Positions 8,215 to 10,826 of a stretch of DNA of 64,000 nt are shown in pieces; positions within the stretch are counted from its first letter, which is position 1; every line of letters begins with the position of its first letter. The notes beneath the pieces are model-generated. The model was not told the DNA's origin, ran no database searches, and worked only from the letters and a program-made list of their open reading frames with translations. The DNA is from Gammaproteobacteria bacterium (GTDB lineage: Bacteria > Pseudomonadota > Gammaproteobacteria > Nevskiales > Nevskiaceae). The stretch is taken from positions 1 to 64,000 of the forward strand of contig JAPLSA010000031.1 of NCBI GenBank assembly GCA_026398815.1. The letters are read 5' to 3'. Both the position numbers and the translations under genes were made by a program.

Positions 8215-8415
8215 GTCTGGGCTCGAAGCGAGTGGGTGTGCTCAGGCTGTCGGCAAACCCTTATCGCCAAGGCTGCGGAGGTCGAATGACGCGAAGTCTG
8301 GCACACCGCTTACACGGGGAACGCCTCGCGCTTGCCAAAAGGCTCAGCAACGCTTCCTGAGCGTGCAGTGCCACACACACAATGGGCTCAGCGCATTCAT
8401 TGTTGCGGCTTCGTT

Positions 8416-8553
8416 CGCCAGATTATCCTGCAGCCAACAGGCAAGAACATTCCTGATGAGAATCAGTCTATTGACTAAATCCCGCCAGAATATCTCGTAC
8501 ATTTCGCCAGATTATCGTGCGTTTCGTCACGATAACGTGGCAGGTTATCGTGC
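8416..8553. repeat. Cluster of CGCCAGATTATCGTGC-type repeats (direct and inverted) upstream of the ATPase/DUF4435 gene
   Basis: cgccagattatcctgc (8416-8431), cgccagaatatctcgtac (8483-8500), cgccagattatcgtgc (8505-8520), cacgataac (8528-8536, inverted), ggcaggttatcgtgc (8539-8553). Confidence 0.7.
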
Positions 8554-8576
8554 ATTTTTGCAGCCTAATTGTAGTT

Positions 8577-10205
8577 ATGCCCCATTCCGAGAACCATTCT
8601 GCTATGGCTGAAAAACGCACGTTGACCCTACCGCGCATCAACGGCGCAACGGAATCCATAGAGACAACACAAAGCCTGCTATTCATCGGCGCGAATGGCT
8701 CGGGCAAAACTCGCCTAGGCACATGGATTGAAATCACTTCGCCTCAGCGCCAGTTGGTTCATCGAATTTCTGCACAGAAATCGTTATCGATGCCAGATTC
8801 AACGACGCCAGTTTCAATTGAAATCGCAGAGCGAAGCCTCCTATTCGGCGACGCAGGCTGGAATCATCAGCACAAAATTCATAAGTGGAGTAACAAGCCA
8901 GCCACTACGCTCCTTAACGATTATGAGAAGCTGATGGTCTATTTGTTCTCGGACGAAACTGAGGCAAATGCAAAATTCAAGATCGAAGTAAAGACGTGTA
9001 CGGCGCGTGTTGAGCCTCCAATAACAAAGATCGACCTTGTCAAGGAGGTGTGGGAAAAAATTCTTCCCCACCGTGAGCTCGTAATAGGTGGCTTAAGGGT
9101 TCAGACGCGCGTCAAGGGTCAAGCCGAGAAAATCTACAATTCATCGGAAATGAGCGATGGCGAGCGTGTCATCTTCTATCTGATTGGGCAATGTCTGGCT
9201 GCTCCAAAGAACGGAATCATTGTTATCGATGAACCGGAATTGCATCTTCATAAGTCCGTGCAGGCACCGCTTTGGGCTGAAATAGAAAAGCTAAGGAGTG
9301 ATTGCCTGTTTGTATATCTGACGCACGATGTTGATTTTGCTGCTGCACAAAATGGGGCAACACGAATCTGGCTGAAGTCTTTTGATGGCACATCGTGGGA
9401 TTGGGAGCCTGTCAATCCCGATGAGAGTCTTCCTGACGATCTTCTGCTCGAAGTCTTGGGAAGCAGAAAACCGGTCGTATTCGTCGAAGGAGATAACGGT
9501 AGCCACGATGTCTCCTTGTATCGTGAAATTCTCCCAAACTTTCTCGTTATTCCAAGAGGAAGTTGTTCACAAGTCATCCTCTCGGTTAAAGCGCTAAAGG
9601 CCAACGCGCAGCTACATCACCTCAGTGTATTTGGCATTGTGGATCGCGATAGAAGGGTTCCTCAAGAAATCGCCGCTCTAGAGGCAGACTCAATCTTTGT
9701 CCTCACGGTCGCAGAAGTTGAAAATCTCTTCTGCACGGAGGAGGTAATAAAGATCGCTAGCAAGAGGCTTTCGCGCGATCCGGTCGCTGACTTTCAGAAG
9801 GTCTCCGCTGAGATATTCAAGCGACTTCAACAGGAGCTAGATACACAGATTTCTCTGCGCGTCGCAAGTGAAATCAAGTTTCAACTCGGTATGTTTGATC
9901 AAAATACCAAAGGAGAAAGCGCGCTGTCTGGTGCGCTAACCGCCCTTGCGCAGGGCATTGACGTGAAACAGCTCTATTCGACATTCTCGGCCAGCTTTTC
10001 GGAGATCATTGCCAGTGGCAACTATGAAATGTTGCTGAGCACATACAACCGCAAATCGCTAGCGAATCAGGCTGGCGGGGCTCTAGGTTTGAAGAACGGC
10101 GAACTGCCTGAATTGATCCTCAGGTTAGCCAGGGGCGACTGCCGCGACGAACTCCGTTCAGCATTGAAGAAGTACTTTGGAAACTTTGGTACTCATGTGG
10201 CATAA
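8577..10205 (+). CDS. Single-chain AAA/ABC-type ATPase with C-terminal DUF4435 (TOPRIM-like) domain; candidate fused PARIS (AriA-AriB) anti-phage protein
   Basis: Walker A FIGANGSGKTRLG, signature SDGERVIFYL, Walker B GIIVIDEPELHLHKS, LTHDVDF switch; then VVFVEGDNGSHDVSLYREIL, FGIVDRDRR and VAEVENLFCTEEV motifs typical of DUF4435. Start codon uncertain (ORF opens at 8517; ATG also at 8577 and 8604). Confidence 0.85.
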   Translation: MPHSENHSAMAEKRTLTLPRINGATESIETTQSLLFIGANGSGKTRLGTWIEITSPQRQLVHRISAQKSLSMPDSTTPVSIEIAERSLLFGDAGWNHQHKIHKWSNKPATTLLNDYEKLMVYLFSDETEANAKFKIEVKTCTARVEPPITKIDLVKEVWEKILPHRELVIGGLRVQTRVKGQAEKIYNSSEMSDGERVIFYLIGQCLAAPKNGIIVIDEPELHLHKSVQAPLWAEIEKLRSDCLFVYLTHDVDFAAAQNGATRIWLKSFDGTSWDWEPVNPDESLPDDLLLEVLGSRKPVVFVEGDNGSHDVSLYREILPNFLVIPRGSCSQVILSVKALKANAQLHHLSVFGIVDRDRRVPQEIAALEADSIFVLTVAEVENLFCTEEVIKIASKRLSRDPVADFQKVSAEIFKRLQQELDTQISLRVASEIKFQLGMFDQNTKGESALSGALTALAQGIDVKQLYSTFSASFSEIIASGNYEMLLSTYNRKSLANQAGGALGLKNGELPELILRLARGDCRDELRSALKKYFGNFGTHVA

Positions 10206-10268
10206 CCCTGCGGTCCACCGGACGCTGCGCGATAAAGCCGCGCAGCGCCGGTGACCTCCACGTTAGAC
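10200..10268 (+). mobile_element. Integron attC recombination site
   Basis: R'' GCATAAC and R' GTTAGAC; arms GGTC(c)ACCGG(a)CGCTGCGCG / CGCGCAGCGCCGGTGACC pair perfectly except two extrahelical bases (G and T on the bottom strand), 7-nt loop ATAAAGC, 5-nt unpaired spacers on each side; the stop codon of the preceding ORF lies in R''. Confidence 0.88.
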
Positions 10269-10271
10269 GGC

Positions 10272-10488
10272 ATGAAGACCAGTTCTTGACTGCTCGGCAT
10301 CGTCGTAGGCGCACTAGTTCCTGCATCGGTTGGAACAGGCGTGATTTGCCTCCTGGATTCCTACTCCACCTCTTTGGGGGCACATGGCTGGTCGCTGTCC
10401 TAGTCTGCCTTGCTCATGCCGCCACTCTTGGCGCACCAGTCTTGTGGTTGCTTCATCGCTCTGCCCAGCTGACCTCGACGAGCGCGGT
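10272..10488 (+). pseudogene. Decayed second gene cassette encoding a small two-TM protein
   Basis: ATG 4 nt after attC; MKTSS*LLGIVVGALVPASVGTGVICLLDSYSTS then +1-type shift to LVAVLVCLAHAATLGAPVLWLLHR; in-frame TGA at 10287 and a frameshift. Confidence 0.5.
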
Positions 10489-10510
10489 AGGGCGGGTCGA
10501 GACCCGCCGC
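10484..10510. repeat. REP-like palindrome GGCGGGTC-GA-GACCCGCC
   Basis: 8-bp perfect stem with 2-nt loop in a non-coding segment. Confidence 0.6.
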
Positions 10511-10548
10511 GTTACCGAATGGAATCAATTCCGCGGCGATCTTTTACC

Positions 10549-10616
10549 GCGTAAGGCACACACCGCGGCGTGCCGCGTCGCTGCGTCTTTGGCGACAGCG
10601 GCCGTGTGCGTTAGGC
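10549..10616 (+). mobile_element. Degenerate attC-like site
   Basis: Right end GTTAGGC fits GTTRRRY; left GCGTAAGGCACAC pairs with GTGTGCGTTAGGC with two mismatches; internal arms imperfect. Confidence 0.35.
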
Positions 10617-10684
10617 GGGCAGTAGCGCATCGCTCGGATACAGCGGCGCGATCCGGAGCGAGGCTATCGCCGCGGATGAACGAT

Positions 10685-10711
10685 CCCGGATTTCGCTGCG
10701 CTCTATCCGGG
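10685..10711. repeat. REP-like inverted repeat CCCGGAT...ATCCGGG
   Basis: 7-bp stem around tcgctgcgctct in non-coding DNA. Confidence 0.55.
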
Positions 10712-10826
10712 CTACGGTTCTGGCGAGCGACCGGCACCGAGCAACCGGCCAGCCCGCCGGCTCACACCCCGAAAAGCAGCGCGTTCGTTACCGGCGAACG
10801 TCCTGCCGCCTCGCGCTCGCGCCGCC

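Follow-up and report, generated by a model that had tools for sequence, protein, structure and literature searches.

The window, a term that designates the entire stretch of 64,000 nucleotides analyzed here, contains at positions 8577-10205 (+) an ORF of 542 amino acids that is located between tamB and an esterase gene. The tamB assignment of the original prediction agrees with Pfam, whereas for the second flank we adopt its name and take the gene to be an esterase. The ORF had been described as encoding an ABC-type ATPase followed by TOPRIM/DUF4435-like motifs, and all motifs quoted at that time are present in this order, namely, GANGSGKT (residues 38-45), SDGER (193-197), VIDEPELHLH (216-225), and LTHD (248-251), followed by VEGDN (303-307), VDRDR (355-359), and EVENLF (380-385). 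An alignment with 31 homologues, sharing identities down to 26%, showed that the key residues are unchanged: G38, K44, S193, E196, P220, H250, E304, D356, D358, E380, E382, and N383 were found to be invariant. Given this invariance and the Pfam matches to AAA_21 and DUF4435, these motifs are not the product of chance. The AriA-like ABC ATPase half comprises residues 12-271 (8610-9389, +), and the AriB-like TOPRIM/DUF4435 half, which harbors the last six of the invariant residues, corresponds to residues 290-542 (9444-10202, +). The true start of the protein is more likely to be the ATG at 8604, resulting in 533 amino acids, than that at 8577, because the latter lies within a cassette recombination core and because the homologues begin near residue 10.

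The GC content drops to 48% at the gene as compared to about 70% around it, and the third-position GC of 0.52 contrasts with values of 0.91 for tamB and 0.90 for the esterase, so that the compositional dip reported previously is borne out. The gene forms part of an insertion (8227-10817) that is absent from congeners: the gap between tamB and the esterase measures 2.6 kb in the window, as compared to 0-125 bp in the five congeners for which both flanks are present in the locus. The genomes G013 and G019 carry other, unrelated DNA between tamB and the esterase, which does not match the leader sequence that precedes the AriAB gene, and this spot can therefore be considered variable. The insert of G013 (L072:8259-10167) contains two or three minus-strand ORFs, of which the one scanned had no Pfam match; that of G019 is found at L046:2187-2974. 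In the window, the only recognizable features of the roughly 550 bp that form the distal end of the insertion (10269-10817) are repeats that are common to congeners. Prophage or plasmid delivery was considered and dropped, since no such genes were seen in the 2.6-kb insert. Acquisition of the AriAB gene by horizontal transfer is supported by sequence comparisons, namely, by its GC and third-position GC values, the lack of an AriAB homologue in congeners, the empty sites, and the presence of homologues in the cassettes of distant bacteria.

Profile and fold comparisons

Evidence for the family of this protein comes from profile searches. The PADLOC AriAB profile PDLC02982 matches residues 10-537, that is, end to end, with an E value of 8.4e-206 and a score of 683 bits, as compared to 32 bits for the PADLOC GajA profile. 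The DUF4435 domain that the original prediction had placed in the C-terminal half was detected there by Pfam with 64 bits (E 1.7e-17), and AAA_21 was identified with 42 bits, the cut-off being 27 in both cases, whereas the OLD TOPRIM model was absent among the Pfam matches. Sequence searches of the PDB were less informative: a phmmer search with the single protein returned no match, and a profile of the 31-member alignment retrieved AriA at an E value of 1.2e-5 alongside retron PtuA and OLD. AriB was never reached by this profile and was found by structural comparison only.

AlphaFold2 modeled the whole chain with a pLDDT of 87.7 and a pTM of 0.55, and because of the latter value the relative placing of the two halves is not to be trusted; the C-terminal half alone was predicted with a pLDDT of 94.4 and a pTM of 0.88. 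Using VIA-align, the N-terminal half was found to match AriA (8v46_B, Z 14.1, rmsd 3.6, 224 aligned residues; 8v45_F, Z 14.0; 8ux9_B, Z 14.0), with scores that tie with those of retron PtuA chains and hence do not separate the two. The best matches of the C-terminal half were AriB structures (8v46_D, Z 9.9; 8ux9_A, Z 9.6), which aligned over 205-213 residues with an rmsd that is high (about 8). This alignment pairs residue 1 of the model with residue 12 of the AriB chain, and E304 would thus correspond to AriB E26, a residue whose mutation abolishes tRNA cleavage (PMC12409363).

An OLD-like protein had been envisaged as the alternative to PARIS, and a one-chain ATPase-TOPRIM protein of the OLD/Gabija type, which nicks or cuts DNA instead of tRNA, would indeed have the same domain order. 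OLD was also the top match, at low TM, when Foldseek was used on the whole chain, and OLD (Z 7.5 and below) and Gabija GajA (Z 6.4) are the proteins that come after AriB in the C-half list; with Foldseek alone, the C-terminal half had no confident match. However, AriB is ahead of them by more than 2 Z units, with its 205-213 aligned residues compared to about 150, and both the PADLOC scores and the Pfam domain content argue in the same direction. An OLD/Gabija-type protein is therefore improbable. The full-length profile match and the predicted fold matches to AriA and AriB support the assignment of the gene as a single-chain AriA-AriB fusion, i.e., fused PARIS, as had been proposed originally.

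Cassette boundaries and the attI-like leader

The AriAB stop codon is overlapped by a 69-bp attC-like site (10200-10268, +), which is composed of the R'' sequence GCATAAC, containing the TAA, an imperfect stem, and the R' sequence GTTAGAC. This stem has two single extrahelical bases that are both on one arm, a feature that is typical of integrase-recognized attC sites. Its folding is unusually stable, with z values of -4.8 and -4.3 on the two strands and none of 200 shuffled sequences being as stable. At the other end of the gene, the R' core site G^TTATGC (8574-8580, +) complements R'' exactly, and the cassette ends GTTATGC and GCATAAC pair at 7 of 7 positions, as they must in a cassette that closes on itself. 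As judged from both crossover points, the cassette that would be excised spans 8575-10262 (+), from G^TT to G^TT, and the unit at the cassette level, consisting of leader, gene, and attC, is larger than the ORF (about 8399-10268). The AriAB gene is, on these sequence grounds, an integron gene cassette, a point that the original prediction had overlooked.

An Rfam search for attC at this site gave no match at E values up to 10, which is why covariance models of our own were built. The leave-out model, constructed from 13 other attC sites after exclusion of the window site and its two close relatives, identified 10200-10268 as the sole significant place in the 64 kb (E 1.2e-4), the next best having an E value of 2.8. 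If the gene had entered by another route, the hairpin would be an ordinary terminator or a chance palindrome; the failure of Rfam is in line with this notion, as is the fact that IntegronFinder calls clusters from two sites onward, a threshold that one attC does not reach, according to excerpts of a study on Xanthomonas integrons (PMC12444791). This possibility is already disfavored and appears very remote, since it conflicts with the model match, the exact complementarity of the cassette ends, which is seen in homologues as well, the termination of the attI-like leader at the crossover point, and the presence of a 71-bp near-copy of the window attC in the array on contig C23. We consider it highly probable that the anti-phage gene of this locus is a fused PARIS and that it constitutes one integron gene cassette, a view based on sequence and predicted structures. 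Scans of the other cassettes of the same genome for known defense families detected none.

The cassette occupies the first position behind an attI-like integron leader (8399-8576, +) that abuts the gene, ends at the G^TT crossover, and shares 83% identity over 178 bp with the attI/integrase-promoter region upstream of intI in the full integron on contig C29. Across the genus, 11 leader loci were found in 4 genomes, and in all cases homology stops at this GTT or next to it. The 17-bp attI core GCAGCCTAATTGTAGTT (8560-8576, +) is present in exactly four copies in the genome, on contigs C11 (the window), C18, C23, and C29, and is absent from the reversed control. With up to one mismatch, it occurs exclusively in the window genome and three congeners; there was none in 54 of the 58 family genomes. 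The three further exact cores are located at C18:1774-1790 (-) (L036), C23:777570-777586 (+) (L024), and C29:1472-1488 (-) (L015). All three are followed by cassettes with no assigned function, about six of them on C23, and an integrase is found at C29 only. The attC model additionally matched sites away from leaders at C19:25512-25595, C30:826-909, and C7:927-992 (L144, L145, and L146), of which the latter two are near contig starts and may represent broken arrays.

The only full-length integron integrase of the genome is that of C29, which scores 477 bits against an NCBIfam cut-off of 265. Near the window locus, no intI was detected beyond a weak match of 35 codons, namely, a tblastn hit of IntI residues 1-35 at 8374-8458 (-) with 46% identity and an E value of 0.12, which possibly corresponds to a decayed integrase 5' end in or next to the leader. 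The locus differs from a complete integron in that intI is not adjacent to attI. Among the leader loci, intI was found exclusively on C29 in the window genome and on C27 in G013, and most of the other leader copies have cassettes or attC sites behind them; the leader on C48 of G013 had no attC match. G017 (91% completeness) possesses two leaders and no intI match, which may be due to real loss or to a gap. Upstream of the attI core, the leader contains an inverted repeat with a short T-run behind it (8528-8552); this element is largely kept in the closer leader copies and could be a terminator or correspond to integrase-binding repeats.

Two readings of this arrangement deserve consideration. 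The attI copies may be docking platforms that are dispersed in the chromosome, have no integrase of their own, and rely on a single integrase acting in trans on all of them; a cassette could then be first and best expressed at its own locus. The window would be one such platform, holding a one-gene PARIS. This model is put forward tentatively, as a possibility that falls short of an even chance. According to the second reading, the locus represents an integron duplicate from which the integrase has disappeared, and the cassette, perhaps also the gene, is no longer mobile or expressed. The possible decayed integrase start is consistent with such a fossil, as are the failure to find a sigma-70-like promoter in the stretch scanned and the progressive loss of activity that excerpts of PMC12444791 report for Xanthomonas integrons. 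However, the AriAB ORF is intact and has kept every catalytic residue, neither the attC nor the attI core is damaged, the AriAB cassette is first behind attI, and a full-length integrase is encoded elsewhere in the genome, so that an inactive site is rather unlikely. The fossil reading is compatible with the identity of the gene as a fused PARIS cassette and disputes only the present activity of the site.

Homologues in other bacteria

Scanning genome contigs with an alignment-based profile resulted in 55 homologous loci, whereas single-protein pattern scans of genome contigs and viral contigs retrieved nothing. Among phage records, only a partial match of 27% identity, in Oenococcus phage phi9805, was detected. 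When the leave-out attC model was applied to 63 homologue loci, it was significant in only 4, namely, those of Allopseudospirillum japonicum (65% identity), Synechococcus sp. RedBA-s (62%), Pseudoalteromonas piscicida (45%), and Shewanella atlantica (33%), where it has to be considered that the training set included another Allopseudospirillum site and a second Synechococcus site. The match coincides with the AriAB stop in Allopseudospirillum and Pseudoalteromonas, and in Shewanella the two are no more than about 10 bp apart; in Synechococcus, a site at the AriAB stop was seen by eye, and the model match, which is the second site mentioned above as belonging to the training set, is about 70 bp further on. 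The cassette ends pair at 7 of 7 positions in Allopseudospirillum, Pseudoalteromonas, and Shewanella and at 6 of 7 in Synechococcus. In a further genome of the same class, the ends around a homologue with 64% identity pair in the same way, and an attC-like stretch of 127 bp is present that did not fold convincingly; this homologue is only a probable cassette. No adjacent attC was found for the homologues of Thiocapsa, Burkholderia, and Paraburkholderia.

In a phylogenetic tree, the window protein groups with the attC-less homologues of Thiocapsa and Burkholderia, beside the Allopseudospirillum-Synechococcus pair; the Pseudoalteromonas protein is outside that grouping, and that of Shewanella is found elsewhere. 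This topology needs four changes of the cassette label, and cassette status has therefore been gained or lost repeatedly. That such cassettes recur in Gammaproteobacteria and also in a cyanobacterium points to a wide spread of fused PARIS by integrons. As the fusion is a presumably movable cassette behind an attI-like site, integrons can probably pass it between very different bacteria. In G031 (L005:415-2598), an AriAB-like gene that is cut to 370 amino acids was seen, by eye, beside an IS30-type transposase-like ORF.

Relation to known systems and possible mechanism

This locus joins two topics, namely, PARIS, which acts by tRNA-cutting abortive infection, and integrons as stores of compact anti-phage genes. 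Fused single-gene PARIS has been described already (Rousset et al. 2022; excerpts of PMC9122126), and the window protein shares with this AriAB fusion (PDLC02982) the domain order, the full-length profile match, and the catalytic motifs; in contrast to the fusion as described in these excerpts, the window gene has an attC of its own and forms an integron cassette. Anti-phage integron cassettes have been known since 2025 from Vibrio and mobile integrons (Darracq, Getz, and Kieffer 2025, reviewed in PMC12409362), and the excerpted parts of this review portray integron defense systems as streamlined to small sizes. The PARIS fusion fits this pattern, since joining sensor and effector turns PARIS into a single-gene unit that can be accommodated in one cassette. 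The window gene shares with the Vibrio and mobile-integron cassettes the compact single-gene format, and differs in its integrase-less attI platform and its location in a chromosome of high GC; the excerpts of PMC12409362 mention no cassette with PARIS.

A paper on Xanthomonas integrons reports, in the sections excerpted, CALINs at fixed places and twelve defense systems (PMC12444791). These CALINs and the window genome have in common that cassettes occupy chromosomal sites separate from intI, whereas the loci of the latter, unlike the CALINs as described in those sections, retain a recognizable attI leader before the cassettes. The dispersed attI copies could account for integrase-less cassette loci at fixed chromosomal places. 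Truncated attI copies have been reported inside cassettes of class 1 and 2 integrons (PMC12901181), an arrangement different from that of the window. A search of mostly open-access literature revealed no report of PARIS or DUF4435 in integron cassettes, nor of dispersed integrase-less attI copies, which is weak evidence of novelty. Members of the OLD family and Gabija GajA likewise combine an ABC ATPase and a TOPRIM domain in one chain, and their profile and C-half fold matches to the window protein are weaker than those of AriA and AriB.

In the two-gene PARIS of E. coli, a ring of AriA holds AriB, which is released by Ocr or similar proteins, dimerizes, and cuts tRNA-Lys (PMC12409363; PMC11455837). 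Both halves of the window protein match the respective chains of this system (PDB 8v46, 8ux9) by predicted fold, but they are covalently joined and the ATPase half is shorter: about 150 residues separate the Walker A motif from the signature, and this segment of AriA seems to be longer by well over 100 residues (profile positions 121-239 align to AriA residues 302-424). Given its family, the protein probably follows the same logic from sensing to the TOPRIM domain as E. coli PARIS. The ATPase half would sense a phage product and keep the TOPRIM half inactive, and activation would allow the TOPRIM domain to cut host tRNA, thereby stopping growth. By analogy, tRNA is also the somewhat favored target of the fused AriAB. 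The trigger may be one other than Ocr, in view of the reduced length of the ATPase half relative to E. coli AriA. The covalent linkage precludes the release of AriB from AriA, and this, together with the shorter ATPase half, makes the hexamer model, in which up to three AriB are released, inapplicable as it stands. The fused form thus raises a mechanistic question; activation would have to consist of a rearrangement enabling the TOPRIM domains to pair while tethered, or of proteolysis. For the cassette itself, the C29 integrase would act in trans on the attI-like site of the window. A plasmid of Paraburkholderia sabiae (L076:1-4219) carries both formats side by side, with a gene pair encoding an AAA ATPase and a DUF4435 protein, like two-gene PARIS, located directly upstream of a fused AriAB.
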